Assembly: GCA_038049695.1 (NCBI GenBank)
Contig: CP142456.1
Coordinates: 19,558,501-19,622,500 of the forward strand
Source: Cinnamomum chago
Lineage: Eukaryota > Streptophyta > Magnoliopsida > Laurales > Lauraceae
DNA length: 64,000 nt
Direction: 5' to 3'
A program made the translations under genes and the position numbers. Shown piece by piece: positions 675 through 61,971 of this stretch. How positions within the stretch are numbered: position 1 is the first letter of the stretch; every line of letters starts with the position of its first letter. The notes under the pieces were generated by a model, which was not told the origin of the DNA, did not search any database, and worked only from the letters and a program-made list of their open reading frames with translations.

Positions 675-3495
675 ATGGATAAAAGTTGGATGCAGCTTCG
701 GGGTAGACATTTACCTGCTTACATGAAAGGAATTAAAGACTTTATTGAGTATGCGCGTGATTATGCGGATAAAAGCAATAGGATAAAATGTCCATGTAAC
801 AAGTGCAACAATAGATATTTCAAACCCATTAATATGGTTAAATCACATTTGGAGGAAAATGGAATAGATAAGACTTATACCCGGTGGGTATTTCATGGCG
901 AAGATTTTGAGGAGATGAGTGAGGCTGAAGACGATGATGGTGATGGTGGTGTAGAGCAACGTTGTGATGGGTTGCAGGAAATGTTAGCAGACGTATGTGA
1001 GGGAAGGTATGAGATGAATATTAATGTGGAAAATATACCACAAGGGGAAGCATCTAGTAGTCATGGTCCTAGTGCAGCATATGAGGATCCATAACTGTCT
1101 GATGCGATCTCAAATGACTTAGTTCCACAACCATTTGATACGATGTTAAATGATTTGCACCTTCCACTATATCCAGGGTGTGAGAAGTTTTCAAAATTGG
1201 AATTCCTTGTGAAGTTGATGCATGTAAAAATAATCAACCATTGGAGTAACAAATCATTTGATATGAATCTTCAATTGATTAAAGCGGCATTGCCTACTGG
1301 TGAGACGCTTCCCAAGTCATATTATGAGGCTAAGAAGTATATGCAGGACTTGGGTCTTGGCTATGTTCCTATACATGCATGCAAATATGATTGTGCACTC
1401 TTTCGGAAGGAGCACGAACATAAAACTAATTGTCCAGAATGTGGTGAGCCGAGGTATAAACTTAATGAAGGTAAGGGTAAGAAGATTCCTCAAAAAGTTT
1501 TACGGTATTTTCCATTGAAGCCTAGACTGCAGAGGTTGTTTATATCAAGAAAAACAGCTGAAGATATGAGGTGGCACAAGGAAAAGCGAGTTGGGGAGGA
1601 TAATGTATATAGGCATCCAGCAGATAGTCAAGTTTGGGAGGAATTTGACAAGGTTTATCCGTGGTTTGCGAAAGATCCTCGTAATGTCCGTCTTGGCCTC
1701 GCGAGCGACGGGTTCAATCCTTTAGGGGACATGAGCACTTCCTATAGCATGTGGCCTGTCATGCTTATCCCATATAATTTGCCACCTTGGAAATGTATGA
1801 AAGAACCCTTCCTTTTCATGTCATTACTTATTCCTGGACCAAAAGCACCCGGAAATGACATCGATGTGTACCTGGTACCATTGATAGATGAATTGAAGGA
1901 ACTATGGGAAAATGGCGTAGAGACTTTTGATATAGTGACAAGAAAGAAATTCAATTTGCATGCAGCACTTTTATGGACTATTAATGATTTTCCTGCATAT
2001 GGAAACTTGTCTGGTTGGAGTACGAAGGGGTACATGGCATGTCCAATTTGCAACAAGGATGCATGTTCAATGTATTTGAAGCATGGACGAAAGCTATGTT
2101 TCATGTGCCACCGTCGTTTCTTGCCGCCCAGGCATGCTTGGCGACGCCGTTTTAAGGATCACTTTGATGGTAATATTGAGCGCCGGTCAAAACCTAAGAA
2201 GTTATCTGGGGATGAAGTTTCTGCACAATTAGAACGTGTCCAACCTAACAAATTTGGCAAGGCACCAAACAATAAGAAGAGGAAACGAACTGAGATGGAG
2301 TTGAATTGGACAAAAAAGAGCATATTTTTTGAACTATCGTATTGGCGAGCACTAAAACTTCGACATAATCTGGATGTGATGCACATAGAAAAGAACATTT
2401 GTGATAATGTGTTAGGAACATTGTTGAATCTAGATGGGAAAACAAAAGACATCGTGAAAGCTCGCATGGATTTAGAGGCAATGGGTATACGAAAGGAATT
2501 ACACTTAATCCCGAACGGTGATAAAGTAATGGTGCCACCTGCATGCTATACACTTTCTGGAGCAGAGAAAAAGAGCTTTTGTGAATGGTTTAAATCGGTT
2601 AAGTTCCCAGACGGATATGCATCTAATATATCTCGATGTGTGAATATTACAGATGGTAAAATATCAGGATTGAAAAGTCATGATTGTCACGTCCTTTTAC
2701 AACGGCTTCTACCGGTTGTAATACGTGGATATTTGAATGATGATGTTTGTATCCCATTGATTGAATTGGGTATTTTCTTTAACGAGTTGTGCAGCAAGAC
2801 ATTAAAGTTGCAGGCGTTAGAGAAGATGGAAAGGGACATTGCCATTATACTTTGTAAGCTAGAACGAATATTTCCACCGGCATTCTTTGATGTCATGGTT
2901 CACTTAGCAGTTCATTTGCCATATGAGGCGAAAATTGGTGGACCTGTGCAATACCGATGGATGTATCCTATTGAAAGGTGATTTGTATAAGTTATTAATT
3001 TTTATATGATGTCTTTATGAATGTAATTTATTACTTTTTTATTTAGTAACTATAAAATTATAAACAGATTCTTGCACACTCTAAAGCAATACGTGCGCAA
3101 CAAAGCATGTCCAGAAGGCTCAATTGCAGAATCATATATTTACGGTGAATGCCTCTCATTTTGTTCTATGTATTTTGAAGGCATAGAAACAAAATTCAAC
3201 CGTGAAGAACGGAGTTATGATGGAGGTCAGGGGCAATCATATGAAGGGCTTCATGTTTTTGGACAAATTGTCCGACATTAGGGTCTCGATCATATGAGAT
3301 ATTGGATATAGTGGAGTATAACAAAATTCGATATTACGTGCTAAATAATTCCGAGGAAATTGCATCATATCATGAGTAAGTGAACTATGTACCTATAATA
3401 TAATTGCATATGAGGTATTTGTATATTAAATTTTGCATTCGTATTATATTGGTATATACTTCTTATATAGGGAGCACAAGTCAGAGCTTCAAAGG
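675..3495 (+). pseudogene. CACTA transposase (TNPD/tnp2-like), interrupted by stops
   Basis: The frame opens at ATG 675 with a transposase-associated N-terminal domain: a basic start, then Cys-rich KCPCNKCNN and the ending RWVFHGE. An in-frame TAA at 1092-1094 interrupts it. The same frame resumes at once and runs to 2977 through the tnp2 domain (LHLPLYPGC, KTNCPECG, LASDGFNP, NLDVMHIEKNICDN) and into a DUF4218-type domain. An intron at 2978-3067 (GT-AG) restores YPIER-FLHTLKQYVRN, the conserved DUF4218 continuation. Further stops begin at 3279. A last recognisable piece (VEYNKIRYYVLNN, then EEHKSELQR across a splice at 3376-3470) ends at 3495. The usual long DUF4216 region is missing. It would excise and integrate CACTA elements if intact; as read it is not translatable in one piece. 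The 1092 stop could also be a sequencing error. Confidence 0.85.
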
Positions 3496-3842
3496 GTAAG
3501 CGTACACAATGTCGATCATGCGTAAGAAAACAGATGATTTACTCTACCATCCAAAAAAGAAAAAGAAAAAAAAAACAAAACAGATAATATACTCAAGTTG
3601 ACATGTGATAATACTCTATTCAAGGTTGTAGTTTCTTTGAGATTTTCAGTGCTCTGAATTATTTGTTGCATTCATTGTAAAGATTTCAGCACTGTCTAGT
3701 TTATAGGATTTTCTTCATCGCATGTCAATATTGTTCATGTTTGTCATGTTAAATTATAAAAGAAAGAAACTCATAATCTTTCAAAAGTTGGGGCTGTTGC
3801 TATTTTTATTGGAAATATTTCTATATACTTTTGTTTCTAGTT

Positions 3843-5535
3843 ATGAGAACAGGAAGGATGCAAACGAGTGCACAAGAACGGGATGCTTCAATATTTGATT
3901 CGACGATTGAGCCAGAGGCAAATAGCGTTGGTAAGATCAATACTATTAGTTATATATTTTTATAAAATTATTAAGTTTCATGTATTTTTTTATTAACTAT
4001 TTTCTTTTTCCTTTTAGCTTCGACCTACCATGTCACCTCCACTAGAAGAGGACGTGGTAGCTCAAAAAATATCTCCCTTACCAGGCTTATTAAGGATACG
4101 GGTCAAAAGCTAAAGATTGAAATCCCTGAAGGGCTGTCTAGACCAGTTGGCAAGTATGCAAAACAATTTAAGACTGAAGTTGGCATAATTTGTCGAACGT
4201 ATGCTCCTCTTGCATGTTCCACTTGGCCAACGGTTAAACAAGAACATAGGCAAGTTTTTTATGATCGCATTTTGGTAATTCAGTCCTCAAAATTTTATTT
4301 TTTGCCTTTATTTTGCATACTATGTTATTTGAAAGTTGGATACAAAATTAAGTAATCTCTTTCCTGTAAAATATATCTAACAAACTTATTATGAATGCAT
4401 CTTATTTGTAGGACAAATTTGATATAGATCTTCATGATCCACGTTTGAAAAAAGCTGTTAACAGTTATTTAGCATCAACATTCAAAAACTATAGCAACAT
4501 AATGCACTCCCATTATAAGAGGGCTGGCAATCACAAGGTGGCATGCCAGAAACCTTATGAAGGTGTGTCACAAGAAGATTGGGAGTTGTGCTGCAATAGG
4601 TTTTGTTCAGAAGAGTTTCAGGTGAAATTTATTTTTAACTGTATTACCTACATAGAAATGATTTTTTTTTAGAAAATCTTGACGGCATTTCTAATCGTTA
4701 ACTTGAATGCAAAAAGTTAGTAAAAAGAATTCCGAAAACCGACAGCTGCTTAAAGTGAACCATTGTGCGGGTTCAAAATCATTTGTCGAATATCTTCATG
4801 AGACGGTATTAGTAATTCTAATATTTTAATAAGTATTGATTTATTAGCTTTTTTTTTAATTTAATATTGTGTTCAAATTATACAGCGTGATGCTCCAATT
4901 GGTAGGATAGAATTGTGGCACAAGACACATTATAGTCAAGAGAAGGGTTGGTCTACTCCCGAGTGTCAGCTGCTCTATGTAAGGACACTTTTTTTAAAGT
5001 TTCATCTAATTAATTATTTCTTTTGTTCTTCAGTTTTTCTATACATTTCTAAATATTTATGTGAATTTTTTTTCTATTTTAGGATAAAATGATTACACTC
5101 CAGTCGCAGCCCACAGAAGAGGATTCTCCCCCATTGACAGATAATGAGATATGCAAACGAGTGTTGGGTACAAGGCATGGATATGTCTGAGGTCTTGGGC
5201 ATGGCGTTGTGGCCCCTCCATCCTCTTCAACGGGCCTTCAAAATAATCAGCGGGTGGAAGAGCTTACTAAGAAGGTCGTGACAGCTGAAAGACAAGCTCA
5301 AGAGTTGGCTGAGCAGTTACAGTGGATGGAAGCTCAGATGGAGGCTCAAAGGCAACAAATGGAGGCTCAGATGGAGGTTCAGATGGCGGGTCAAAAACAA
5401 CAGATGGAGGCTCAGATGGAGGGTCAAAAACAACAGATGGAGGCTCAGATAAATGAAATGAGGTCCTGGCAAAAGAATATGGAGGCTATGATGCAATCTA
5501 TAATGGCGCAAAAGATGGGCACTCGTCCATGGTAA
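3843..5535 (+). pseudogene. CACTA TNPA-like protein (plant transposase, Ptta/En/Spm family), multi-exon with one stop
   Basis: Exons read from frame and GT-AG borders are about 3843-3930, 4018-4274, 4412-4621, ~4710-4805, 4886-4980 and 5083-5535. Encoded landmarks fit the plant Ptta/En/Spm family: TRRGRGSSKN near the start, then PVGKYAKQFKTEVG, WELCCNRFCSEEFQ, GRIELWHKTHYS and a C-terminal coiled coil. The coiled coil is built from repeated MEAQ units (5320-5480) and ends at 5535. In the last exon the usual GYVRGLGHG is GYV-stop-GLGHG: a TGA at 5188-5190 sits where CGA is expected. This protein class binds subterminal repeats, and the GCGACGC cluster downstream is the likely target. Start choice is tentative. 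Confidence 0.8.
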
Positions 5536-14596: not shown

Positions 14597-14908
14597 CATA
14601 GTTTTCAATTCCATTTCGTTAAGCTAGAGTGGCCTAAATTTTTCGTTTCCAGAATGTGCCAAAAAAAATCGGTTTGAATTCCGGTCATTTCGGTTGTCCA
14701 TTTCAATTGTCCATTTTGATTTATAGCACAAATTCCACTCTTTTTTTTTTTTTAATTTCTCAATATTCATATCAAGAAACATGCATAATTTATATATTTT
14801 ATTTTTCATTATTATTCTAAAAAGTTACTCTGGAAATTTTTGCCGAATTTCCGAAATACCAAAATATTCCATCTTAGATGCTAGACCGAAACAAAATTGA
14901 CAACTATG
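14597..14908. mobile_element. hAT-type MITE
   Basis: A 312-bp AT-rich sequence has ends CATAGTTTTCAATTCCATTT (left) and, inverted from the right, CATAGTTGTCAATTTTGTTT: about 21 bp with few mismatches. The flanks GTGATGGC (14589-14596) and GTGATGAC (14909-14916) form an 8-bp target duplication with one mismatch, the length typical of hAT. It has no coding potential. It ends 62 bp before the left end of the Mutator-like element. Confidence 0.8.
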
Positions 14909-14970
14909 GTGATGACACATCTCATGACTATGTACATTTTAAAGGAAAATGGGCTTTACAATAAGCCAAA

Positions 14971-15969
14971 CAAAAAGTCTATATGGACCGATCCCAGAGA
15001 CCGAAGTTGGGACCGATCCCACGTTGAGGTCCACGTGGTGCTGATGTGGGATGCACAGTGATTTTAACTTTTGTATGGGCGGGAGAAAGGAAAAAAAAAA
15101 AAAAAAGAAGGGAAAATGGGTCTCTTCCGTCAAAATGGCCAAATCAAGTCTCTGCTTCTTCATCGCTTTCTACGTTTGGTTTTTTTGCTTATTCTCTCAC
15201 TCTGACCTCCCTGTATCTGATCTCTCTCGCTCTGTCACAAACGAATGGAAATCATTGTGTCTGCTTCTTCTTCCTCCCAAACGGTCTATGCCCACCTCCC
15301 TAGATCGCATCTCTCCCTCTCGCCCGGAGACAAACGAAGGGAAATCGTTGCGTCTGGTTCTTCTCCTTCCCAAACAGTCTCTGCCCACCTCCCTGGATCT
15401 CATCTCTTTCTCTTGTCCCGGAGAAAAACGAAAGGAAATCATTGCGTCTAGTTCATATCACAGCCAATAGGTCTCTGCCCGACCAAAACGAAGAGGAGTA
15501 GCCCTCTGGTTTGATACACCCAGGTATTTTTTTTAAATCGTGCAAATGATATTCAGTATTCATATGGGGATCTATGTTGTTGTTCTCTTTCCATAGATTT
15601 GGGGCACTTTTCTTTTCTCTGTCTGCTTTCTCCTTTTCTCTCTCCCTATTGGTCCACCTCCTTAGAAAGTACACAGGCTCTGTTTTAGAAAGCACCCTGT
15701 TCAGTGAGGATTTTCTGGAGCAGCAGAAGCATGGTGTAGTGAATGATAATGGGTAAAAAGATAGCCAGTATGTAATCTCTTGTGTATCCAGTAATACAAA
15801 GGCTATGAGACTCCCATGTGGAGAATCAATGCATAGATACACCCTTTCCAATTCCAAAGAGGAAGAGTTGTGAAGAATGGCAAAGTGTAACTTGCCATTA
15901 CTGCCATCAAACCATGAAGAGAAGATAATGTCTTGTATTGTAGCTAATAGACCAATGGCTATTTTTAGA
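14971..15969 (+). repeat. Left terminal inverted repeat of the MULE
   Basis: This is inverted relative to 19334-20328. It contains an A-rich tract (15089-15105), three ~93-bp imperfect tandem units starting at 15238, 15331 and about 15425, and a stretch that reads open on the minus strand (15453-15857). The matching stretch in the other arm is also open (19444-19767). This frame is preserved mainly because the arms are near-identical; I do not claim a protein. Confidence 0.9.
15238..15480 (+). repeat. ~93-bp tandem repeat units inside MULE TIR
   Basis: Three imperfect units start CAAACGA(A/G).GGAAATC and carry CCCAAAC(G/A)GTCT and GCCCACCTCCCT. The third is diverged and truncated, and a decayed part of another precedes 15238. 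The same array is present inverted in the right TIR at about 19810-20060. Confidence 0.8.
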
Positions 15970-17199
15970 GTACAATGAAGGTGTGTTAAATACGCCTGGC
16001 AGTATTCAGTTTGTTTATTTCCTTTATATGGTAGGTTTTACATGCATTGCTACAAAAATTTGCATGTAATGGCATGCAAATTAGATACTGGAGATCAAGA
16101 TATTTAATTATATATTTATGATTTGTTGGCAAACTCGATTTGGGTTCTAATTCAATGCCTTCCCTTGTTTCCAATGTTATTGAATCTCAAAGTGATGAGA
16201 AAACTACACATAATACTATAGTAGAAGTATCCATGACTACTACTTTAATGTTCCTAAATTGATATAAATTTCTTCTATAGAGTTATGAAATTACCAACAC
16301 AGAGCTTTCCATATGTATAAGAGATTTTTAGATTTACAAGGCCTCTTGCTAATCTGCATAGTCTGGATGTGGCTTTGTATTTGATGGAACAATGTTATCT
16401 TTGTGACTGTTAAGTCAATATATTTCTGATTATATGTGTTCTAAAGTCTTCATCTACAAATCCCTTCTTTTGTTTGTAAAGATCTTGAAGTAAATGGCTT
16501 CATATGCCTTTTCTGGAAATAGAATTGGCCTCAACGTTTATGTCAATGTGGTGTTGGAAACTGTGTAGTCAAGGTTTCGCGATCATCAAATAATTATGGT
16601 AGACAATATTATTCCTATCCACGACCATTAATAAGAGTGCAATAAACTTTGGCCTTTTCCTTATTTTCAATTCTTATTTATTTTTGCATATAAACAAATA
16701 TGTACCAACTAACGACATATATTTGCCATCATTTGCGAGAGGAAAAAACAAGCTTGCAACAACTTCATTAGTTGATGTGATGAATATGTGAGATCGACAA
16801 TCAATCACCCATACCCTTGCCAAAGTACTCCGCACTATGCCCCCCTGAAGTTGAGACCCGTGTTGCAAATGTTGTTACAAGATTGGAGAAGCTTGAACAA
16901 ATTTGTCAAGTCTTCACGGTTGTTCTGATTGTTTACGCTGTCCTGCTTGTGATATTATTGTGTCGAATGTAGCATCCAAGCTTTACTCTTCTAGATTGGA
17001 AGCTACTATTATGTAAGTGGTTGGTTGATAGGTGAAATGATAGACTGCAAATGTTTTTTTTTTTTTTTTTTAACTTTGATTAATGGAAGTTGCTGTAGAG
17101 AACCAATTGTATCTAGGGTAAATGAATGAAGAACTTATTTTTGTATCTGTATATTCTCATTTTGTCGTCTCATCTTTTGAGCACCTAATAGAGTTTGAT
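15970..17199. other. MULE interior, left part, no recognised gene
   Basis: No coding frame here resembles a known protein. A T-rich run lies at about 17057-17070. The stretch is AT-rich and may be spacer or eroded transposase. Confidence 0.5.
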
Positions 17200-17820
17200 T
17201 TGGCACACTTTTTAGCCCACTTCCCGAAGGGTTTTTTTTGCTGAGATTTGGGGATTCCAAAGACCATATTATGAACCTTAAATCTGCTAATTTTTACTTA
17301 ATTAGAAGCACGTTTGCCTGTGTTTCAAACCGTGCACTTTTGCAAGTCGGTTAAGAAAATCTGCAGGAACCCAGTTGGGTACCCTTGTTTGGCACACTTT
17401 TTTGCCTGCCTCCCGAGGGATTTTTTTGCTGAGATTTGGGGATTACCAAGACCATATTATGAACCTAAGATCTACTAATTTACACTTAATTAGAATCACG
17501 TTTGCCTGCGTTTCAAACGGCGCACTTTTGCAACTCGATTAAGAAAATCTGCAGGAACCACAAGCTGGGTACCCCTGTTTGGCACACTTTTTAGCCCACT
17601 TCCCGAAGGTTTTTTTTGCCAAGATTTGGTGATTGCAAAGACCATATTATGAACCTAATATCTGCTAATTTTCACTTAATAAGAAGCACGTTTGCCTGCG
17701 TTTCAAACAGCGCACTTTTGCAACTCCGTTAAGAAAATCTGCAGGAACCACAAGCTAGGTACCCTTGTTTGGCACACTTTTTCGCTCACTTCCCAAAGGT
17801 TTTTTTGCCTCGGCATCCCC
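17200..17820. repeat. 190-bp tandem repeat, three full copies plus a partial
   Basis: The phrase TGGCACACTTTTT recurs at 17200, 17390, 17580 and 17770, giving a 190-bp period. Each full unit continues with a CCCGAAGG-like motif, GACCATATTATGAACCT, CACGTTTGCCTG and GCAGGAACC. Units differ at scattered bases. The array abuts the 3' break of the FAR1-type fragment, so it marks where the transposase coding region was lost. Confidence 0.9.
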
Positions 17821-18412
17821 TTCCTTGAGTTCTAAGCGTCTAAGTTTATCCATGTAATTTCGTGCATCCTTTGCTAACCATGTTAGATTCACATGCCTGC
17901 TGCCTCTAACACACATGAGCTAACAGTCTTGTTCAATCTAATACCCACTTTGTCATTCAATTCAAGCTGCCTCTTCACATGTGGTGGGATTTTCCGATTA
18001 CTCTTGTGATATCGAGCTTTGTTTGGACTCATATCATGGTTATGCCCAAGCACAAATGAGTTTAGAAGCCACTTCCCGTCAAATTGCAAAGAAAGATTCA
18101 ACGCTGCTTTGCAATTTGTTCTTGATTGTGGATGGGGTTTAACTGGGTTGCTTGCACTTGGGTTTGGCTTTTTACCCTTAGTACAAGCAATTGTAATAAA
18201 CCTCTTCTTTCCATCCGATCCTTTTTTGAGGTTCTTTGGGTGACAACAAACTCGATTCGCCTAGCATATCTTGCACAATATTCATGTACTTCTTCAATTG
18301 AACCAAATGTCATTCCCCTCTGAGGTTCCATTACTACCTCTTCTAAGTTTTCACCTTCCTCCAAGGGCTTCTCCATCTCAGTGTTGTTTAATTCCTGCCC
18401 AACCGTCCCCAT
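17812..18412 (-). pseudogene. FAR1/MULE transposase N-terminal DNA-binding domain, truncated and frameshifted
   Basis: On the minus strand, from 18412 downward, an acidic N-terminus leads into the FAR1 DNA-binding domain: GMTFGSIEEVHEYCARYARR, then FVVTQRTSKK. After a one-base frame change near 18215 the domain continues with ITIACTKGKKPNPSA, then SRTNCKAALNL, FDGKWLLNSFVLGHNHDMS and RLNKTVSSCVLEAAG to about 17889. A second frame change keeps a last conserved phrase, AKDARNYMDKLRRL, to about 17812. The catalytic DDE domain and SWIM finger are absent because the 190-bp array begins there. Related full-length proteins are MULE transposases and FHY3/FAR1-type regulators. This copy cannot encode either. 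Confidence 0.88.
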
Positions 18413-19333
18413 TTCAATTTCATTGTCGTCTCCATCAAATTCACATGATAATCCATCTTCATTTAAAAAACAAATAAAGCATTCACCTAATTAGAATAAC
18501 TCGATAAAAGTAATGCAGGTGTTGAGAAAAATGAAGCATCATTTTGTAAATCTAAGTTATACCATTTACTTTTAATTCTTTTTCATTAGCAACATAACTT
18601 GAGCCTACATATCATTCATACCCAACCACCAACGCACATGTACGCACACCGTGAGTATGTGTGAGAGAGAGCCAATAAACTCGTCAAACAAATTTGAGAA
18701 AACATCATCTTATTTCATTTCCAACAACATAAGCAAACATGATAATGTAGAAAAGAAATGGAATAACATGTAAGGGTATTCACAAATTCATCGGGGAAAA
18801 GAAAAGTCCAAAAACATGAATTTTTAGTAAAAAGATATAATAAAGGGAATTGATTGTGGTTTATTTTATTTATATATATATATATATGTGGTTTAATTTT
18901 AACTGATGCTTGATGTACGGTTGCCTAGTTAGATTTGGGCTAATCTTTTTTTTGGGGGGGCGGGGGGGGCGGGGGGGCGGCACTAATCCTATCTATTTTG
19001 AAAAATCATAGTGGGGTTGTGAGGTTCTCAATTTGGGTAAAGGGGTAGAACAGAAAAAGAAGTTCTTTTTTTATAGCCAATGCGGCATCTCTTTTCAATG
19101 TTCTCATCCTTCCATTTTGATTCATAGCTTACTAAATGCAATGAAATAATCGGAGGTAAAAATAAATTATCATGACTTGTGGAAGTTTGTATCATTTCCT
19201 CCGATATCAGTTCCTTTCAATGTTCGGCACTTTTGCATATATTCATGGCTTACTGGATGCAATGGTGTTTTTATATTGACTCCGTTGATGCATTGGAGTA
19301 AAAATTTATTATGACTTATAGGAAGTTCTTTCC
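18413..19333. other. MULE interior, right part, with TA repeat and G-rich tract
   Basis: No gene is recognised. A (TA)n run occurs at about 18868-18887. At 18954-18980 there are G-runs of 7, 8, 7 and 2 separated by single C bases after a T-run, a strong G-quadruplex candidate. Confidence 0.55.
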
Positions 19334-20328
19334 TAAAAATAATCATTGGTCTATTAGCTGCAATACAAGACATCCTCTTCTCTTCATGGTTTGATGGCAG
19401 TAATGGCAAGTTACACTTTGCCATTCTTCACAACTCTTCCTCTTTGGAATTGGAAAGGGTGTATCTATGTATTGATTCTCCACATGGGAGTCTCATAGCC
19501 TTTGTATTACTGGATACACAAGAGATTACATACCGGCTATCTTTTTACCCATTATCATTCACCGCACCATGCTTCTGCTGCTCCAGAAAATCCTCACTGA
19601 ACAGGGTGCTTTCTAAAACAGAGCCTGTGTGCTTTCTAAGGAGGTGGACCAATAGGGAGAGAGAAAAGGAGAAAGCAGACAGAGAAAAGAAAAGTGCCCC
19701 AAATCTATGGAAAGAGAACAACAACATAGATCCCCATATGAATACTGAATATCATTTGCACGATTAAAAAAAAAAATACATGGGCGTATCAAACCAGCGG
19801 GCTGCTCCTCTTCGTTTTGGTCGGGCAGAGACATATTGGCTGTTATATGAACCAGACGCAATGATTTCCCTTCGTTTTTCTTCGGGACGAGAGAGAGATG
19901 AGATCCAGGGAGGTGGGCAGAGACTGTTTGGGAGGGAGAAGAACCAGACGCAACGATTTCCCTTCGTTTGTCTCTGGGCAAGAGAGAGAGAGATGCGATC
20001 CAGAGAGGTGGGCATAGACCGTTTGGAAGGGAGAAGAAGCAGACACAGTGATTTCCATTCGTTTGTGACAGAGCGAGAGAGATCAGATACAGGGAGGTCA
20101 GAGCGAGAGAAGAAGCAGAAAAACCAAACGTAGAGAGCGATGAAGAAGCAGAGACTTGATTTGGCCATTTCGACGGAAGAGACCCATTTTCCCTTCTTCT
20201 TTTTTTTTCCTTTCTCCAGCCCATACAAAAGTTAAAATCACTGTGCATCCCACATCAGCGCCACGTGGACCTCCACGTGGGATCGGTCCCAACTTCGGTC
20301 TCTGGGATCGGTCCACATAGACCTTTTG
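19334..20328 (-). repeat. Right terminal inverted repeat of the MULE
   Basis: This is the inverted partner of 14971-15969. It has the same order of features: the end sequence, the A/T-rich tract near 20205, ~93-bp units and the inner boundary. Small indels distinguish it, such as a shorter homopolymer. Confidence 0.9.
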
Positions 20329-20337
20329 TAAGCCAAA

Positions 20338-21075
20338 ACCAAACTATGGGTCAAGCCCAACCTACAAGACCCAAAAGCCATGACAGGTCTATAACTTGGA
20401 GTGCCCGACAAAAACTCACGTGGTCTTGTTTTTTCATTTTTTTACCGTGCGCAACATGCACTCACACTTTTAGTGAGGCACACCTTGATAAGAACACATT
20501 CATCAAGATGCAGGTCCCACAGATGTGATCATCTGTAAACGCACACAAAAAAAAAAAAAAATGCCCTGTTGGAAAAACTCAGAGATTTTGCAAAATTGAT
20601 TGAATAAGTGCCATTGATCCCATCTTGATCAAGTTAAAGAAGGGGCCACGATTCTTCACTTGAGACACATCAAGGCGGTTCACAGTTTCGGTCATGATAG
20701 AGATTGATCAAATTAAAAGAAAAAAAAAAGGTTCTTAATGCAGAAACAACCTAAAAAAAATACTGTGGGTTCCGTCATTCCCGGTCAATCCTCGCACTCA
20801 TAGCATAGGCTTTTCCGATTTGTTGAGGTAAAACCCTACGCTCGTTGTCACCGTATGTAGGATCCCAACTCGTGATGCCCTCGCAGCACTGATTAAAGAA
20901 AAGGAATCATTCAAGTGTTTCTGGCTTTAATATTTGCACATAAACAAGAACACAATTTCCAAGAATGGTGCCAGCACGTGTTCCACTGTTCCTATCTGAG
21001 GATGGCAGATTTGAATGACTCAACCTAAGACATGATTAGTTCGAGATCGATCATATATTATATGCATAAATCAAA
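20338..21075. other. Intergenic stretch without recognisable features
   Basis: No supported coding frame or element. Short A-runs occur at about 20548-20562 and 20718-20730. Confidence 0.5.
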
Positions 21076-46200: not shown

Positions 46201-49200
46201 AACACTGCAGCTGCTACTACTTCTAGCGATATCCCTTAAGCTTCGGTCATGTCTTCACCACCTCTTGCCTCCAACTCTGCCCCTCTAATCACCCCTGAAC
46301 TCGTTCAACAAATGATCATGAATGCCTTCTCTGTACTTGGCATTTCAGGTAACCACCAATCATCTTCATCATTATAGTTTCTTGATTTTGGAGCTCCAAA
46401 TCACATGCCCTCCTCCTCCACTCATCTCTCTAATCTGCAACCATACAATGGAAATTTGCAAGTTCATACTGTTGATGGTCAAAAGCTTCCCATTACAGCT
46501 CTTGGTGATGTTATTCATTCATTATTTCTAAAAAATGTTTTTCTATCTCCTCATCTAACTACAAATCTTTTGTCTGTCGGACAACTGATTGATGATAATT
46601 GTAATGTATCTTTTTTTCGGTCTGGTTGTGTTGTGTAGGATCAAGTGTCGGGGACGGTGATCGTGAAGGGGCTTAAGTGTGGACGCCTGTTTCCTCTTCT
46701 TATGCCTCTCCCTCTCTCTCTCAAAATAAGCAGCCCTCTGCGTTCTCTTGTTTTTCTTCTCAAGATATTTGGAGGCTCTGGCATAATAGATTAGGCCATC
46801 CTCATTCAAAATTGTTATCTTTGATGTTGAACAATGGTAGCATTAATGAAAATAAAACTTCTTTTAGTCACATTTCTAATGAGTGTTCTGTTTGCAAACT
46901 TGGAAAAAGCAAAGTTCTTCCTTTTACTTCTAAAACTATTATGGCTTCAAATTGCTTTGACATTATTCATAGTGACGTCTAGGGGATTACTCCTGTAATT
47001 TTTCATACAAATTTCAAATATTTTGTCACATTTATTGATGATCATAGTATTTTCACATGGGTATATTTCTTGCATTCTAAATCTGAAGTCTTTGATGCTT
47101 TCCAAAAATTTATGGTTTATGTTGAAAATCAGTTTTCCACTCTCACAAAAGTTTTCCGATATGATTTAGGGGGAAATATATGTCCCATCAGTTTCAAAGT
47201 TTTCTGCACACACTGGATTTTATCACAAAGATCATGCCCTTATACTCCTCAACAGAATGGAGTTGCTGAACGGAAAAACAAGCATATCCTAGATATTGTT
47301 CGCTCTCCTCTTGGAATCCTCAGTTCCTGCTAAATTTTGGCCCGAAGCTTAAGCCACTGCGGTTCACTTAATTAATCACTTACCATCCCCTCGTCTCACT
47401 AATCAAACACCATACTTTCGTCTCTTTCATACAGATCCTACTTATACCCACTTGCGTATTTTTGGATGTGTGTGTTTTGTTCATCTTCCTCCTTCCGAAC
47501 GTACAAAATTAACCGCTCAATCAGCTCAATGTGCGTTCCTTGGCTATGTTTCCCACCAAAAAAGGTATATTTGCTATGATCTTGTGCTCAACCGCATTCA
47601 CATCTCTCGAAATGTCATTTTTTTCGAAAAACACGTTTCTTTTCTCACAATCCTCAGCCTTTACCTTTTTTTTCTCATTTACTAGATTTTACTGACGTAA
47701 TTTCTTCCCCAGTCGATGTTTATGAACAACCCCGTCATAAGGATGTTCCACTACTGCCTCCCCCTCCAGATCCGTCGCCGGCACCTGATCTTGCCCCTAC
47801 TTCATCACATGATGCTCCTATTGCTTCATCTCCAATTCAGCTTCGACGTTCTGCTCGTCTCTCCAAGCCTCCAAAGAAATATGGTTTCACTCACACATAT
47901 TTGCTTGCAACTCTATCTTCCATTGCTATTCCTAACTCTTACTCACAGGTGGTGAAGCATGATTGTTGGCAAAAGGCTATGCAAGAAGAATTAGCTGCAC
48001 TGCAGGATAATCATACCTGGGATCTAGTTCCATGTTCATCTTCTGCAAAACCTATCGGCTGCAGATGGGTTTTTTCAGTCAAGCTTAAGGCAGATGGCTC
48101 GTCGGATCATTGTAAGGCACGGTTAGTCGCACTGGGCAACTGGCAGGAATATGGTATCGACTATGACAAAACGTTTGCCCCATTTGCAAAAATGATAACA
48201 GTCCGTATTGTTCTTTCCATTGTTGCCTCTTATTCCTGGCCTCTTTACCAATTTGATGTCAAGAATGTGTTTCTTCATGGTGATCTAAAAGAAGAAGTCT
48301 ATATGTGACTTCCTCAAGGAATTACTGGTGCCTCGGCAGGAGATATTGCTCGCTTATGACGAGCTCTATGTGGTCTTAAGCAAGCACCATGCGATTGGTT
48401 TGAAAAACTTCGAGATGCTCTCCTTCATCTTAAATTTTCTCGAAGTGCCTCTGATCCCTCTATGTTCCTGCATCGCTCCTCGAATGGAATTACTGTCCTC
48501 TTGGTTTACGTGGATGACATCATTATATCTGGGACATATTCAGATATGATCAAACATCTACAAGCATCCCTACATGAGTCCTTTCATATGAAAGATTTAG
48601 GGCCACTCACATATTTCTTAGGCCTTGAGGTTCATCAGTCAAAGAAAGGTCTCATCCTCGACAACACAAATATGCTATGGATCTTATTGAGATGGCCGGT
48701 CTTCAACACTCAACTCCTGTAGATACACCTGTTGAGGTTAATATCCAGCTCGCACACAATACTGGTGATCTTATTCCTGATGCCACATTATATTTATGTT
48801 TAGTCGGCAGCTTGATATACTTGACCATCACTTGGTCGGATATCTCATATGCGGTGAATCTGGTTAGTCAATTCATGACATAACCACGCCATCTCCACCT
48901 AGTTGTTGTTCGACGCATTCTTTGATATGTCCCTAGTACAACATCTCGTGGCCTTTTCTTTCCTGTAGGAAATTCGACCTCTCTCATCGCTTACTCAGAT
49001 TCTGACTGGGCTGGTTGTCCTGATAGTCAACGGTCTACCTCGGGTTGGTGCATGTTCTTAGGAAACTCATTGATTTCCTGGAAGTGTAAGAAACAAGATA
49101 AAGTTTCCAAATCATCCACTGAAGCAAAATATTGTGCTATGTCTGCCGCCACCTCTGAAATTGTTTGGCTTCGTGGTCTCCTTTCTAAGCTTGGATTTCC

Positions 49201-50874: not shown

Positions 50875-53800
50875 AATGTTTAAAACTGAGTCACTGTGTA
50901 CTCAAGGGCCTCGCCTGAGTCCCACTTCCCTGATACCGAGTTGGTTCAACCTGACTTGATAGGTGCCAAGTTTGAGTCGACTTGGACTTGGCCGATTTTT
51001 AAACCATGGCATGAGATGATCCACTGATTCCTCATCATTCAAGCACATGGGGCAGCCATTAACAATATTTGTCCTCCTTCTCCTTAGGTTATCCATCGTG
51101 AGAATGCTTTTCTTAAGAGCCATCCACCCAAAAATAATCACCCTTAGGGTGCCTTTAACTTCCAAATGCTACTTACTGCACTCCTCTCCCTCGGGTTGTT
51201 GAGGATAGCCGAAAAGAAACAGGAGACTGAGAAGATCCCGTCTCTTGATGTAGTCCACACCCTAACGTCCTCATTGTTATCCGGGACGTACACTCCTTGC
51301 ACGAGATTGAGCAACGATATGAATTGAGATGCTTCATTGTCTCTCAGATTCCTTCTTAAGTTGGGGCTCCAAACCACCTGTCCACCGATTCTTGTCATAG
51401 ATGAATTAACCTTGGCTTCTTTATCCTTTGAAACTTTAGTAAATCTGGAAATTGAGCACCCAAGGACCTATCTCCAGCCCACCGATCTTTCCAAAAGAGA
51501 ATCCTCTCCCCTGATCCAATTTGGTACTATATATTCTCCATGAAAGGCCTTTTAACCGATAAGATTTCTTTCCAAATTGCTGATGCTTTTGTTGGAGCTT
51601 CCTAGACATCCCACCCACATCTTAGAAGGTTATATTTCCTATCTAGAATCTGTTTCCAGAGGCCTTCTATTCCATCTCCTATCCTCCATTGCCACTTGCC
51701 TGGGAGGGCTTGGTTCATTTGCCAGAGAGGCTTGATACCCAAACCTCCTTCTTCCTTAGGTTTGCATAACGAACCCCAATCCACCAAATGAAGTTTCTTT
51801 TGGGTATTATTACCATAACACTGGCAAATTTTAACAAACTGACTTGATCAAGGTGACCCTTCCTCCAATGAACAAGTATTGAGCTTTCCATAATGAGAAC
51901 TTTTTCTCTACCCTTTCCACTACCGAGTTCCACAGAGATTTATAACCCTCCCTGAGCTCAGAGGCAGCCCTAAATACAAACTGGCAGTTCTCACCTTGCA
52001 CCCCAAGATATTAGCATATTTTCGAAGCACCGACTTCTTATTTCTTAACCCAATCAGCTCACTCTTAAAGAAATTCACCTTAAGACCTGAAACCGCTTCA
52101 AAACAGAGGATAGTGGTTTTTACGTTTCTAATGTGATCTTCATTAGCTCCACAAAATATGAGGGTATCATCAGCAAACTGCAAGTGGTTAATAGCAGGGG
52201 TATTTCTAGCCACTTTGAAGCCTTCGAACAAGCCCGCATTCACTGACTCATCAATCATTCTACCCATCGCTTCAACCACTATTAGAAAGAGAAATGGGGA
52301 GATAGGATCCCCTTGTTTTAGCCTCCTTTTGGCTGGAAAGAAGCCCTTTCGAGACCCATTTATCAAAATGGAGAATCAAGCTGACGAGACACATTCCTGG
52401 ATCCACTTTCTCCAGTTTTCCCCCAACTCCATTCTTTTGAGCATGTATTGAAAGAACTTCCCATCTCCTGTCATAAGCCTTTTCCAAATCTAATTTGCAA
52501 ATGAGCCAGCCTCTATGTATATCTTGAGTGCACAAACTCATTGGCCACCAGATGACGTCCATGATCTGTTTCCCCTTCACAAAAGCTCCTTGCTCATTGG
52601 ATATTACTTTTGGCAAGACCTTCTGAATTCTCCTAAGTAATACCTTGGCTAGGATTTTGTAGATACTTCCAAGCAGACTAATAGGCCTGCAGTCCCTTAT
52701 GCCAATCTCTCTTGACTTCTTCGGGATAAGCGCAATAAAAGAAGCTCCCAATCCTTTGGAAAGCTTACTACCCCTTTGGTGAAATTCCTCCATGAATGCT
52801 AATATATCCTTCTTCAGCATCTCCCAAAAGTGTTGAAAGAAAGCCATTGGAAACCCATCTGGGCCTGGAGCTTTGTCACCCCCAAGGTCGATTACTGCCT
52901 GATGAACTTCCTCCTCTTCAAGCTTCCTTTCCAACCATTTAGCCTTTTGTTCTCCAAAAGTATCAAAGACTAAGTTATCTATAGATGGTCTCTCCCAGCC
53001 CTCCTCTGCATAAAGAGAGGAAAACCAGTCTTCTATGTGGGCTATTATCTCCTCTTTCTTCTCCAATCTTTTATGCCCATCCATTATGCAGTAGATCCGA
53101 TTTGCCCTTTTTCTCGAAGCAGCTATCTCATGGAAAAATTTTGTATTTTTGTCTCGTTCAGCCATTTGCATCTTGACCTTTGTCTCCACCTTATTACCTC
53201 CTCTCTTATCTTCCTTTGGAAATCTTCTTTTAGGTCTAATCTAGGAAGCATAGACACCTCTTTGGAGCTTGCGTGTCAGTGTCGGACATGGCACGCCCGG
53301 ATACGTGTTCGACAAGCCAAAAAATGGTGTCTTGCTTATTTTTTAATATTTTATTTCCCGGACACGCTGGGGACTTCTTTTTTGCTTTTTTTATTTTTTA
53401 AATGGAGGGGAAATTGATGATCCTCCCTTTTCTTTGTATGGATTTTATGGAACTATGGATATTTCATGTTTAATGATTATGAATTATGTTTCAGTTTTGT
53501 ATTGCTATTTGATAATTTGATATGTTTGTTAGTTGGTACAGTGGTACACTGATACTTGAATTTTTATTTATTTTATTGCTAAATTGATTATAAAGTTAAA
53601 ATGATATTATCTTTTAGTATATGATTAGATATATTATTATTATCAAATATTATCGTGTCCTCGACATGTCTGTGTCCTACTTTATTGAGAAATGCCATGT
53701 CGGCGTGTCCATGTCGTGTTGTGTCCGTCCTTCTTTGGGTCTAATCTTTTCTTTTCTTCTTTGAGGGTCAAGTGGTCACTCTTCTCCTTCCTGTCTAATG

Positions 53801-59800: not shown

Positions 59801-61971
59801 ATGAAGCTTCGTGCCATGACTTACAACTCTGAAGAGGAGGTTTTGTCACAGAGGAAGGAGGCCACATATCTTACCCAGCTTGCTACAAGAACATTGCCCA
59901 AAGGGCTTCACTGCTTGTCTATGCAGCTCACTGCTGACTATTTCTCTCTGCAGCCAGAGGAGCGGGAACTTCTCAATAAACAAAGGTTGCAGCAGAAAAA
60001 TCTCTACCATTATGCTCTCTTCTCTAACAATGTCCTTGCATGTGCAGTAGTTGTCAACTCTACAATTTCCACATCTAGGGTGAGAGCCACCCCCTCTTTA
60101 TTTTGCAGTGTGTGAACATTTGTTGCTTAATTGAAAGTGTTGCTTTGTAGAAATGCATTCTGGTTCCTGCATGCATGTGAAGATTGGTTTTAAGTAGCTC
60201 ATGCGACATGCACATTTTGGTAAACCATTCATGTCCTACATTAGTATGTCAATATTTGTAGTTTGACTGAAACAGGTCCTCCTCTTTAATACAATAAAAA
60301 AAAAGGTCCTTTTTTCATGTGCATCCCACTTTCGTGCGAGTCAAAATAGTTCTTACCATATGCAAAGCATGTTAGAATGCCAGACACACAAGCATGGATG
60401 TGCGAAGGATTTCATATATGCATGCAAACATCATGGTGCGTTCTACTGAGTAAATGCTTTGCATTGTGTATACACTTCTACGGAAACATGGTGAAATAGG
60501 AAACTCTTGTGTGTACTGTTCTTAGTGGGGGAACAAATCCCTTAATAGTGGCACTATGATGCACAGATATGGATATGTGGATCGGGGATGAGACTGCACT
60601 TAAATCCAGGAGAGGATACAAATACAGATTTTTTTTTTTTTTTATCAATAACATGAAGTTCCGTATTTTATATTAAGATTTTTATACTCAGTATTGATTT
60701 TCTTTTGTAGAACATTTCTTAACTAATAAAATCATTAGTTACTTGGAAGACATTCACCTACGAGTGGACTGCATATGCACAATATGCTGTCTGTCTTGTG
60801 GGCCACTTGGATGCTTTTCCTATCATTGGGGATGTGATGGATGGAAAGGTCTGTTTATGGATGAGAGTGATGCAAAAAAATAAGCCTCATCCAGACATTC
60901 TAGCCTTTGATTCAACTGTCTTAAAGTTCAATGGTCTTTTAACCATGGAATTTCTTGAGATGCAATCCAACAGTGGGCAAAGTGTTGATGAGCATAAAAC
61001 CGGGCATGGTGCCAGATGGGTGATTTTTTTTTTGTGTGTGTGTGTGTGTGTGTGGTGGTGGGGGGGGGGGGGGGGGGGGGGGGGGGCAGGGGCATAAACA
61101 CATCTTATCATGAAAGTACAAAAACAGTTAAGACTATATGAAATCATGGACTCAGTACCATACTATGATGCTGAGATATGGCATCTATATGGTAGGGACA
61201 ACACTATGGATATGGCAGGGACACGGATCTTGCACATAAAAGGTGGAGTATTGGATTGGATACGATACAACACAATATGTTGCCTAGTTTGGAGTATTCA
61301 GGTATCATAGGTACCATAGGATATGAAAAACTTGTACCCTAGAAGTATCGGTTCTTTATTGAGTACCAGTATTGGTATTTTATCAGTCCAACATGAGTAC
61401 AAAAGCTTCGTATAATTATCAAGATATAATAGCAGTAGCATTTATTTTTCAGGAACCAGAAAAGATTGTGTTTCATATAGTGACTGATGCGCTCAATCAC
61501 CCAGCAATAACGATGTGGTTCTTGCTAAACCCGCCTGGTCATGCAACAATTCAAGTTGAGAGAATGGATGATTTTAAATTTCTTCCTTCTAGTTACTTCT
61601 CAATGTTAAAGCAACCAAACCCCCGGGATCCAAGATTCTCTTCAGCTTTGAACCACCTGCGCTTTTATCTGCCGGAGATCTTTCCCGATCTGAATAAGAT
61701 TGTGCTTCTTGACCATGATGTGGTAGTGCAAAGGGATCTACAGGGATTGTGGCATGCTGATATGAAGGGTAAAGTGAATGGAGCTGTTGAAACATGTGGG
61801 AAAAGTGATTCATCTCTACGAATGGATACGTTCATCAACTTCTCAAATCCAACCATAGCAAGGAGGTTTGATGTGAATGCATGTACATGGGCCTTTGGAA
61901 TGAACGTGTTTAATCTACAAGAGTGGAGGCGGCGAAATTTGACATCCGTCTACCATAAATGGGTGCAACAG
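28140..61971 (+). CDS. GAUT6-like: Galacturonosyltransferase (GAUT5/6 clade, GT8), exons 1-8; 3' end off window
   Basis: Spliced exons are 28140-28254, 28354-28388, 28514-28555, 36614-36752, 36868-36947, 59288-59517, 59722-60079 and 61453-61971: 1518 nt, 506 codons, open throughout, all introns GT-AG. Residues ~8-27 ([20 protein letters not shown]) form a type II Golgi membrane anchor. A variable stem follows, then a conserved [19 protein letters not shown] region, a helical [11 protein letters not shown] segment and [11 protein letters not shown]. The GT8 fold begins [11 protein letters not shown]; the metal-binding motif is D-H-D at 420-422 in [14 protein letters not shown]. The family transfers galacturonic acid from UDP-GalA to homogalacturonan in the Golgi. 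About 100 C-terminal residues, including the HxxGxxKPW region, must lie beyond 64000. The match to Arabidopsis GAUT6 (stem order, DHD instead of DDD) is from memory; GAUT5 is possible. Confidence 0.93.
28354..28388 (+). CDS. GAUT exon 2 (35 nt microexon-like)
   Basis: It follows TTTGCGCAG and encodes [12 protein letters not shown] with the split alanine codon. The donor is ATT|GTAAGA. It corresponds to the REFIEEL region of related proteins. Confidence 0.85.
28514..28555 (+). CDS. GAUT exon 3 (42 nt)
   Basis: It encodes [14 protein letters not shown] between AATGCAG and GTTTTT. The borders keep frame with exons 2 and 4. Confidence 0.82.
29036..29370 (-). mobile_element. LINE 3' fragment in GAUT intron 3 (RNase H-like tail)
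   Basis: A T-run at 29036-29044 (a poly-A on the minus strand) starts the copy. Minus-strand translation near 29215-29260 gives an [13 protein letters not shown] phrase resembling the end of a LINE RNase H domain. Frames are broken. It abuts an opposite-strand LINE fragment. Confidence 0.55.
29375..29700 (+). mobile_element. LINE reverse-transcriptase fragment in GAUT intron 3
   Basis: The + frame encodes the post-RT connecting region: [36 protein letters not shown] and VGGLGL. These phrases are highly characteristic of plant LINE polyproteins. It breaks off at both ends. Confidence 0.8.
29780..32600 (-). mobile_element. Degraded LINE copies (endonuclease and RT pieces) in GAUT intron 3
   Basis: Minus-strand pieces occur in LINE order. 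An endonuclease end at about 32250-32330 reads [18 protein letters not shown]. Reverse transcriptase at 31388-31582 reads [11 protein letters not shown] and [13 protein letters not shown] decayed active-site region at about 30955-30985 reads [11 protein letters not shown] second copy of the endonuclease segment lies at 29788-29856, and another shared block lies at 29908-30010 and 32481-32582, so at least two copies are mixed. The 32320-32480 stretch interrupts the second copy and contains an antisense TGGTATTGGAGC, similar to a retrotransposon primer site. Confidence 0.65.
32839..33225 (-). mobile_element. LINE RNase H domain remnant in GAUT intron 3
   Basis: On the minus strand, [13 protein letters not shown] near 33215 and [10 protein letters not shown] after frame shifts near 33090 are followed by [12 protein letters not shown] and a decayed LAKEG-type tail near 32870. 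This is the order of RNase H-like domains at the end of plant LINEs. Confidence 0.65.
33223..36370 (-). mobile_element. Probable non-coding LTR retroelement in GAUT intron 3
   Basis: A ~120-bp sequence is directly repeated at 33223-33345 and 36240-36365 (shared phrases AATCACATAATAATAGGAAA and CATCCTTTCCATAT). Just left of the right copy's extended block, GGCTCTGATACCAT at about 36062-36075 is the antisense of a tRNA-iMet primer site (TGGTATCAGAGCC). That fits a minus-strand element whose 5' LTR lies to the right. The interior has no recognised gag or pol. A gene-like phrase at 33710-33770 (TTTATAGTGGTTCGGC) is of a kind often seen in plant retroelement spacers. Confidence 0.45.
34558..34810. 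repeat. Cluster of ACGGYTAGCCGT palindromes
   Basis: A perfect 12-bp palindrome, ACGGCTAGCCGT (34591-34602), is accompanied by ACGGTTAGCCGT, ACGGTTAGCCAT and GCGGCTAACCGT, plus half-sites, within about 250 bp. It lies inside the probable LTR element. Function unknown. Confidence 0.6.
36375..36525. repeat. 150-bp direct repeat, copy upstream of exon 4
   Basis: This matches 37335-37485 in the same orientation. Shared phrases include AAATGCTAGCTT, CTTCAATTCTTCT, GGTCAAAATATCGGA and ACTATATATCATTTT. The two copies bracket exons 4 and 5. Confidence 0.8.
36614..36752 (+). CDS. GAUT exon 4, stem region
   Basis: The acceptor is TTTTGTAATTCAG. It encodes [18 protein letters not shown] and an acidic/Gly-rich stretch to KLKRN, ending phase 1 at AAATG|GTTGGT. 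The sequence is poorly conserved, as expected of the stem. Confidence 0.8.
36868..36947 (+). CDS. GAUT exon 5, with two possible acceptors
   Basis: It encodes [20 protein letters not shown] and ends AAAG|GTATGG. A second CAG lies 15 bases downstream (acceptor at 36882, exon start 36883). It gives an in-frame product five residues shorter, because AAACTGTAGGTTCAG and AAACTGTTGG are near-duplicate starts. Confidence 0.78.
37335..37485. repeat. 150-bp direct repeat, copy downstream of exon 5
   Basis: This is the partner of 36375-36525 at roughly 85-90 percent identity by eye. Spacing between copies is about 960 bp. Confidence 0.8.
37486..39192. other. Intron 5 stretch without recognised element
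   Basis: No coding frame is supported. GAAATTGACAACTATG at about 37919-37934 resembles the end of the hAT MITE at 14597-14908, but no partner end is clear. 38820-38885 has a short direct repeat (CCTCTT.CGTACT). Confidence 0.45.
39193..40290 (+). mobile_element. Internally deleted Ty1-copia element in GAUT intron 5
   Basis: A left LTR-like block starts TGTTAAGAGTTAGAAAG at 39193 and ends GGATTTTAACT, directly before TAGTATCAGAGC (a tRNA-iMet-type primer site, about 39297-39308). A matching LTR starts at about 40067 after a purine tract, GGGGGAG, and ends with the same GGATTTTAACT near 40290. Before it, 39700-40070 encodes the end of copia RNase [26 protein letters not shown], then a degenerate [10 protein letters not shown]. 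The left LTR is much shorter than the right, so it carries a deletion. No target duplication was found. Confidence 0.75.
41060..41690 (-). pseudogene. Ty3-gypsy protease-region fragment
   Basis: Minus-strand frames give [16 protein letters not shown], then [19 protein letters not shown] and [11 protein letters not shown], then CNNTYMF..GGKQ. This matches the C-terminal half of gypsy retropepsins, where the motif is usually MD.C.LLLGRPW. The catalytic DTGA end is not recognisable. Confidence 0.68.
41955..42072 (+). mobile_element. SINE-like retroposon with pol III B-box
   Basis: A 118-bp insert has GGTTCGAAACT (41977-41987), a good pol III box B, and ends in an A-run. The flanks AAGGATTTGTTGTATGTA (41937-41954) and AAGGATATCTTGTATGTA (42073-42090) form an 18-bp target duplication with three mismatches. 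The 3' half contains TTTACCTGGCTCCCCTTGGG. Box A is not clear. It sits in the gypsy element and must be younger. Confidence 0.78.
42230..42763 (-). pseudogene. Ty3-gypsy gag fragment
   Basis: From an ATG at 42763 on the minus strand, broken frames give a coiled-coil stretch ([29 protein letters not shown]), then [11 protein letters not shown] and [14 protein letters not shown]. These correspond to the gypsy gag pattern in which a substrate phrase precedes W-rich helices. Multiple stops. Confidence 0.65.
44443..44710 (+). repeat. 5' LTR of copia element
   Basis: 268 bp, TG...CA ends. A CTATATAAAGG TATA motif at about 44630-44640 is the likely promoter; transcription would read rightward through gag-pol, the same direction as the host GAUT gene. 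Confidence 0.93.
45322..49462 (+). pseudogene. Ty1-copia gag-pol polyprotein, multiple stops
   Basis: ATG 45322 opens [19 protein letters not shown], a UBN2-type gag start. A stop near 45455 and many frameshifts follow. Domains in order: CCHC knuckles [13 protein letters not shown] (46063) and [15 protein letters not shown] (46112); protease, where the usual LDSGAS.HM reads LDFGAPNHM (46383); gag-pre-integrase [13 protein letters not shown] (46778) and [11 protein letters not shown]; integrase [13 protein letters not shown] and [12 protein letters not shown] (47240); [43 protein letters not shown] and active site [12 protein letters not shown] (48498); RNase [19 protein letters not shown] (49114) and [10 protein letters not shown]; end at 49462. 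The protease change and stops mean it cannot move by itself. Confidence 0.9.
49470..49756 (+). repeat. 3' LTR of copia element
   Basis: 287 bp, same ends as the 5' LTR. Compared with it, there are an extra TCAATGGG-type 8 bp near the start and a duplicated GATTAGATTAT 11 bp in the middle, plus scattered substitutions. Confidence 0.93.
50546..50740 (+). repeat. Tandem TTTGGCAGGCAG / CACAGCTACAACATAG repeats
   Basis: Two to three imperfect units of roughly 75-85 bp each contain TTTGGCAGGCAG, CAGCAGCAGT.TAGCACAGC and TACAACATAG.TGC. They lie in the middle of the hAT-like element. A CAGAG-type short repeat lies upstream at 50350-50372. Confidence 0.65.
50816..50872 (+). repeat. (CT)n microsatellite
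   Basis: About 28 uninterrupted CT units in the hAT-like element. On either strand it gives low-complexity frames that are not real proteins. Confidence 0.95.
53245..53730. mobile_element. Unclassified insertion in LINE ORF2 with GTGTC-rich inverted ends
   Basis: The LINE frame breaks between endonuclease and RT here. GGTCTAATC occurs on both sides (about 53233-53241 and 53738-53746), which could be a 9-bp target duplication. Inside, the left end has GTCGGACATGGCACGCC and the right end, inverted, has GACATGGACACGCCGACATG. These are related GTGTC/GACAC-rich sequences rather than perfect TIRs. The interior is very AT-rich. Confidence 0.5.
54800..57431 (-). pseudogene. LINE ORF1 with RRM-type RNA-binding domain
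   Basis: ATG at 57431 (minus) opens [20 protein letters not shown] and [14 protein letters not shown]. An in-frame stop near 57316 follows, then the RRM continues as [36 protein letters not shown] and [13 protein letters not shown]1-like RGFAFVRF and RNP2-like IFVSNL are visible. Downstream frames are acidic and low complexity ([25 protein letters not shown]). A solo LTR splits it at 55833-56206; the LINE frame continues on both sides (GKIIGLQ, then VGQFGLTG). ORF1 proteins bind LINE RNA. Confidence 0.78.
55833..56206. mobile_element. Solo LTR with 5-bp TSD inside LINE ORF1
   Basis: A 374-bp sequence starts TGATGCAGTCC and ends CGCTGCGTCA, short inverted ends of an LTR. It is flanked by ATTGG at 55828-55832 and 56207-56211. 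A TATATATAC motif at about 56026 fits an LTR promoter on the + strand. No internal retroelement sequence adjoins it, so it is a solo LTR left by LTR-LTR recombination. LINE ORF1 frame resumes on both sides. Which family it belongs to is not determinable. Confidence 0.9.
57481..59287. other. Rest of GAUT intron 5, with retroelement-end remnants
   Basis: No coding sequence. Two related blocks, 57985-58075 and 59020-59100, share CTTTGATAT.CATTG.TACGT, CTCTATC.GCTT.AGCTTT and AGTGGTTGT. The first is followed by TGGTATCAAAGTGG, like a primer-binding site after an LTR end. They are probably 3' ends of two LTRs of related elements. 58100-58990 is unrecognised. Confidence 0.5.
59288..59517 (+). CDS. 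GAUT exon 6, conserved N-terminal region
   Basis: It encodes [10 protein letters not shown]... through [21 protein letters not shown] and [17 protein letters not shown]. The acceptor is TTTGAAGCAG and the donor AG|GTAAAC, phase 2. This block is well conserved among GAUTs. Confidence 0.92.
59722..60079 (+). CDS. GAUT exon 7
   Basis: The acceptor TTTTTGCAG at 59721 gives [18 protein letters not shown] across the junction. A second AG at 59731 would break frame. It encodes [19 protein letters not shown] and [19 protein letters not shown], ending AGG|GTGAGA. Confidence 0.93.
60080..61452. other. GAUT intron 7 with (GT)n and poly-G tracts
   Basis: 1373-bp GT-AG intron, no gene. A T-run at about 60630-60643, (GT)n at about 61033-61054 and a 27-base G-run at 61060-61086 are the only notable features. 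Confidence 0.7.
61453..61971 (+). CDS. GAUT exon 8, GT8 catalytic core
   Basis: It encodes 173 residues from [12 protein letters not shown] through [16 protein letters not shown], the DHD motif, [22 protein letters not shown] and [17 protein letters not shown] to KWVQQ. The donor is CAG|GTAAGG. The remaining catalytic residues are in the next exon, outside the window. Confidence 0.95.

Follow-up and report, generated by a model that had tools for sequence, protein, structure and literature searches.

The window, i.e. the whole stretch of 64,000 nucleotides that was analysed, carries a MULE of 5,358 bp at positions 14971-20328 (Table 1). Elsewhere in the window, a CACTA-type transposase frame of 628 aa is found at 1095-2978 on the plus strand (Pfam tnp2, E 1.9e-102), reverse transcriptase fragments representing retrotransposon remnants at 47580-48305 (plus strand, RVT_2) and 52275-53240 (minus strand, RVT_1), and a Glycosyl transferase family 8 frame, probably a host gene, at 61363-62019 (plus strand, E 3.4e-40).

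Table 1. Features of the MULE and of its borders, in window coordinates.
Feature	Position	Strand	Basis or remark
Left TSD TAAGCCAAA	14962-14970	+	directly outside left end; single copy in related empty site
Left TIR, 998 bp	14971-15968	+	arm-to-arm alignment
18-bp family terminus CAAAAAGTCTATATGGAC	14971-14988	+	left end of element
~93-bp tandem repeats inside left TIR	15221-15480	+	mirror set at 19797-20078
Interior colinear with L029:1292-2420, 92.2%	16077-17205 (element 1107-2235)	+	alignment to L029
190-bp tandem array, ~3.3 units	17185-17806	+	in L029 beyond 3' end of transposase gene
Deletion junction TTGCC, common to array side and gene side	17805-17809	+	5-bp microhomology
FAR1-region remnant of transposase gene, three frames	17805-18538	-	frame comparison
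Pfam FAR1 PF03101 match, E 2.1e-9, profile 23-89 of 90	18027-18221	-	Pfam search
Short block, 95% to L029:7484-7562	18983-19062 (element 4013-4092)	+	alignment to L029
Right TIR, 996 bp	19333-20328	-	arm-to-arm alignment
Right TSD TAAGCCAAA	20329-20337	+	directly outside right end; single copy in related empty site

The two copies of the target site duplication (TSD), TAAGCCAAA, agree at 9/9 positions with no shift, for which the chance is about 2.25e-5 per random site pair in the window sequence, and their length falls in the range of the Mutator superfamily (8-11 bp). The long TIRs are likewise those of this superfamily, in which TIRs are commonly long. When aligned with each other, the two arms are identical in 952 of 1002 columns (~95%), with 10 gap columns; 40 of the 992 compared sites (4%) carry substitutions, which are spread unevenly (zero in columns 600-699) and of which 31 are transitions. 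By context, these transitions comprise 9 CG, 7 CHG and 15 CHH, and the cytosines available on both strands of the left TIR number 48 CG, 71 CHG and 316 CHH. CG and CHG transitions are in excess, which is consistent with past methylation, although the numbers are small. The right end (20311-20328) shows two departures from CAAAAAGTCTATATGGAC in its 18 bases, a possible sign of decay of the element. A G-rich tract with runs of 7-8 G is present inside the element at 18954-18981.

The insertion site was analysed with a query of 334 bases that joined both flanks around one copy of the TSD (query 163-171), the best 40 of 183 candidates being scored. Two of these 40 rows are the window's own flanks, one crosses the junction and 37 lie elsewhere; the 37 are confined to query 1-123, a dispersed repeat of the left flank that ends about 40 bases before the TSD. 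The row that crosses the junction is a related empty site (G000:C6:19423845-19424170), 149 kb upstream of the insertion (C6:19573471) and 80% identical over query 4-324. It has no insert, and its single TAAGCCAAA lies in a run of 41 bases that agrees fully with the joined flanks; a longer alignment of this locus to the joined flanks gives 629 identical columns out of 822. Because the TSD is present once in the empty site, the insertion, the ends of the element and the duplication are directly demonstrated. The first-pass annotation, which had described a complete MULE with an exact 9-bp TSD and TIRs of about 1 kb, is thus upheld by the 9/9 TSD, the arms of 998 and 996 bp and the empty site; its proviso that the TSD might belong to a longer common repeat is answered by the single copy at the empty site. 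The flank region itself is duplicated locally, in that C6:19423600-19424400 is 76-81% identical to window 14650-14970 and 20329-20682.

The divergence of the TIR pair (K2P 0.0417) would correspond to 1.6-3.2 Myr at the substitution rates of 1.3e-8 and 6.5e-9 used for dating. This date was discarded, since the arms of a TIR pair may already differ at the time of insertion and are therefore unreliable as an insertion clock. The similarity of the arms, from which recent activity had been suggested, amounts to 95%, and the step from similarity to recency does not hold, and recent activity is weakly indicated in view of the 4% TIR divergence, the broken FAR1 frame described below and the lack of a clock in the TIR pair.

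The interior could be interpreted by comparison with a longer relative, L029 (C7:46314498-46323745, 9,248 bp), the best colinear relative among the copies compared, whose TIRs enclose the 190-bp array and, on the minus strand, a gene that includes the FAR1 and catalytic regions. The match to L029 runs on from the colinear segment through the 190-bp array; past the missing part it resumes, at element 2835-3896, with 92.0% identity. About 2.6 kb that separate the array from the FAR1 end in L029 are missing from the window element. The two sequences that meet at the junction, ...TTTTTGCC from the array and TTGCCTCGGCATCC from the gene, both contain TTGCC. When a 502-aa catalytic/C-terminal protein piece from L049 was used as a probe for the lost part, 497 residues were matched in the extra part of L029 and coverage in the window element was 0. 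The MULE transposase domain was likewise not found in the window element, and it is present in its relatives L033, L045 and L049. The loss of the catalytic and SWIM parts and the non-autonomous status claimed at first pass are thereby borne out, and fuller relatives with the same terminus exist.

The claim that the FAR1 N-terminus is kept is correct in part: the domain is recognizable, but it is spread over three frames, covers only profile positions 23-89 and is not intact. The frame breaks at two sites, one within the domain and one directly behind it. At the second site, inspection by eye of 21 copies gave 10 with a -1 shift (the window copy included), one with a +1 shift and 10 in frame. 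The recurrent -1 shift sits in a run of G (L010, L011, L015, L017 and others) and is seen in both main tree clades. With these frame changes, the window copy is unlikely to yield a functional FAR1 protein.

Since L029 matches colinearly at about 92% on either side of what is missing, the window element is very probably a non-autonomous copy derived by internal deletion from a FAR1-type (Jittery-like) MULE, in whichever order deletion and insertion took place, and not a Pack-MULE. In a Pack-MULE, the TIRs would enclose an exon captured from a FAR1-related (FRS) gene of the host, and long FAR1-MULE open frames at 34-52% identity, which may be host FRS genes, are indeed common in the genome. However, the FAR1 stretch is 87.9-93.2% identical to that of each of 20 other family copies, colinearity with L029, at 92%, extends to the interior beyond the array, and 18 of 20 fetched loci keep some catalytic/C-terminal sequence, the two with none being the window and a copy on C2. 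No captured non-transposon host gene sequence, by which Pack-MULEs are defined, was recognised in the window element. Capture, to which hardly any probability can be assigned, was rejected, as the FAR1 part and the interior both match the family's own elements.

Insertion of the element duplicated 9 bp of a site that survives, unoccupied, in a related copy, and the stretch from the array to the FAR1 end, with the catalytic and SWIM parts, is missing from the element. The deletion would have arisen via interrupted gap repair or end joining at TTGCC. This microhomology is short and could be due to chance. Deletion derivatives of maize MuDR are likewise internal deletions of an autonomous MULE and arise by interrupted gap repair; MuDR represents a MULE clade different from that of the window family. 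For the window element, such a mechanism is an inference. Cut-and-paste movement of its ends would have been carried out by a family transposase encoded at another locus, the FAR1 remnant being most likely dead cargo. A deletion that preceded the insertion, i.e. movement in trans, is slightly favoured. Alternatively, a full-length copy may have been inserted here and then deleted in place, a tentative but realistic possibility that differs from the favoured reading in order only. The intact TSD fits both orders and the empty site proves insertion only; no direct counter-evidence to deletion in place was obtained. A second copy with the window junction was not seen among the best 40 of 164 candidates scored, which fits deletion in place and counts against movement after the deletion.

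The other FAR1-only copy, L031 (C2:16757500-16767400, the same place as L011), also has 0 match to the 502-aa query. Its junction from array to gene differs from that of the window, lying further toward the catalytic region, and it keeps FAR1 almost whole (profile 1-89 of 90, E 6e-16) in an open frame of 221 aa; its left end was looked for and not found. The two deletion copies are not placed together in a tree built from 21 rows, L031 grouping with C10:68732678 (99/96, starred) and the window with L029, L035 and L032 (93/97, below the star threshold); two changes are needed, and 0% of 200 bootstrap trees give one. The tree segment measures only about 700 bp, and gene conversion could blur the grouping. 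A deletion common to both copies was ruled out by the differing junctions and by the tree with its two changes; on this basis, the two deletions are of separate origin.

FRF proteins carry a FAR1 domain without transposase core or SWIM, according to the part of PMC6000157 consulted, and are immobile host genes, whereas the window FAR1 is a mobile-element remnant with a broken frame. The same source, as far as excerpted, suggests that FRF competes with FRS. By analogy, FAR1-only derivatives might persist because a FAR1 protein represses the family by occupying transposase sites, an extremely improbable explanation. The nearly full FAR1 in the open frame of L031, with its different junction, and the -1 shift that directly follows FAR1 in 10 of 21 copies would agree with it, but the window frame is broken inside the FAR1 domain and the shift coincides with a run of G, in which slippage is to be expected. 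Moreover, MuDR deletion derivatives were reportedly recorded by Kim and Walbot in 2003 as not being dominant-negative regulators. Two deletion cases do not amount to evidence of selection, and the probability of repression stays low. The broader proposal, that repeated separate loss downstream of FAR1 yields FAR1-only transposon regulators as an early stage toward FRF-type host regulators, is very improbable.

The internal-deletion derivative in the window belongs to a family of many copies. When 401 bases of the left TIR were used as query (best 40 of 104 candidates scored), at least 61 matches were obtained, a number of them in inverted pairs, and the terminus CAAAAAGTCTATATGGAC with at most one mismatch was matched 285 times in the genome, as compared with once for the reversed control. 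The absence of further TIR copies, which had been named as grounds for rejecting the first reading, is therefore not what was found. In 10 elements with both termini, the TSD was exact (9/9) and unshifted in four (window, L030, L040 and L043); L029 gave 8/9 unshifted, L029 and L042 gave 9/9 with shifts of 1 and 3 bases, L039 gave an ambiguous 8/9 with a shift, and no TSD was detected at L032, L041 and L044 (three of the 10 tested). With shifts allowed, the chance is 0.7% for at least 8 and 0.07% for 9 matches. A 16-kb pair, L047/L048, has a TSD of 8/9 by eye. Arm identity amounts to 85% over 965 columns in L029, 92% over 963 in L030, 99.8% over 1650 in L039, 88% over 483 in L040, 86% over 454 in L041 and 92% over 359 in L044; for partial arms it is 92% over 391 columns in L034 and 88% over 265 in L032. 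The window pair, with 95% over 1003 columns, is thus high in the family and not the highest. Pfam searches placed FAR1 together with MULE in a single frame of L033 (MULE E 4e-34) and MULE together with SWIM in a single frame of L045; SWIM was detected also in L030, L032 and L034. As judged from domains pooled across copies, the family consists of FAR1-MULE-SWIM transposons of the Jittery/FAR1 type.

By the domain content of its family, the window element is an ordinary Jittery/FAR1-type MULE, with TIRs that are long for that group. The citrus element CitMule, as described in excerpts of PMC4334395, is similarly Jittery-related, with FAR1, MULE and SWIM domains, a 9-bp TSD and a length of 6.9 kb; it has no long TIRs, its ends matching at 100% over 17 bp and becoming degenerate further in, whereas the window element has TIRs of about 1 kb and has lost the catalytic part. 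The plant Jittery group 36 (Table 1 of PMC6446971, seen in part) is characterized by FAR1 at the N-terminus and SWIM or CCHC at the C-terminus. In the same partial source, TIRs of the Jittery group in dicots and monocots measure 39-292 bp or are lacking, and those of a red-algal sub-group 192 and 500 bp; the 996-998 bp of the window element and the ~960 aligned columns of L029 and L030 exceed the plant values given there. In grapevine, the portion of PMC2528002 consulted describes Jitvine-1 and Jitvine-2 as Jittery-like, multi-copy families of large elements with deleted copies, in which they resemble the window family; its Table 4 is without TIR length for them. Long TIRs as such are not new, as the MuDR-like Mutavine-7 of grapevine has TIRs of 710 bp (same excerpts). 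Judged by these related families, the host is probably a plant. In the literature searched, which was accessible in part, no recognised report of FAR1-only MULE derivatives was found, and the terminus motif CAAAAAGTCTAT had its only match in work on mantis mitogenomes. The locus, for which both an empty site and a longer colinear relative are available, provides a well-bounded example of a FAR1-type MULE family with long TIRs and many copies; the family is suited to study of the origin of FAR1-only derivatives, and current understanding is not overturned.

An autonomous partner with the same TIR had also been predicted. Among the matches listed in a search for transposase frames (101 rows; best 96 of 2546 candidates scored), at least eight copies are 80% or more identical to the query, without an internal stop and with an open frame of 653-785 aa. 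Copies with open FAR1-MULE frames include C9:10614165, C2:102498338 and C7:45241376. As open FAR1-MULE frames of this size exist elsewhere, helpers of the family in the genome are plausible. One end was read at C9:10614165 (769-aa frame): it carries CAATAAGTCTATATGGAC facing inward, 17/18 like the family motif, and is 73% identical to the window TIR over 74 bases. No copy combining an intact transposase with closely similar long TIRs was found, one end of one open-frame copy having been compared. The prediction is therefore supported only in part: fuller relatives with the same terminus exist, but in L029, the closest colinear copy compared, the transposase is broken (388-aa frame, stops) and the outer ~190 bp are only about 80% identical to the window TIR.

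Some copies depart from the simple two-ended structure. Solo copies of the ~1-kb window TIR occur at L036:4822-5858 (C5) and L037:4924-5995 (C7), with 86.6-91.3% identity, and a second end was not found in the ~10 kb fetched around each. Extra terminal motifs facing outward lie about 1.4-1.5 kb inside the ends in L052 (C9:10615700-10619200; position 1907) and L039 (1726 and 3940), and in about ten copies inspection by eye shows an outward motif some 2.1 kb upstream of the match to the transposase. These could possibly be multiple-TIR MULEs or nested elements; MULEs with additional internal TIRs are known (excerpts of PMC3310237). A segment of L049 that appears Ulp1-protease-like by eye (L049:382-777) had no Pfam match. 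L049 and L050 (C5:19731800 and C6:83960300) are FAR1-MULE copies with large inverted-repeat blocks, and exact inward-facing motifs at C5:19727498 and 19743033 suggest an element of 15.5 kb around L049.
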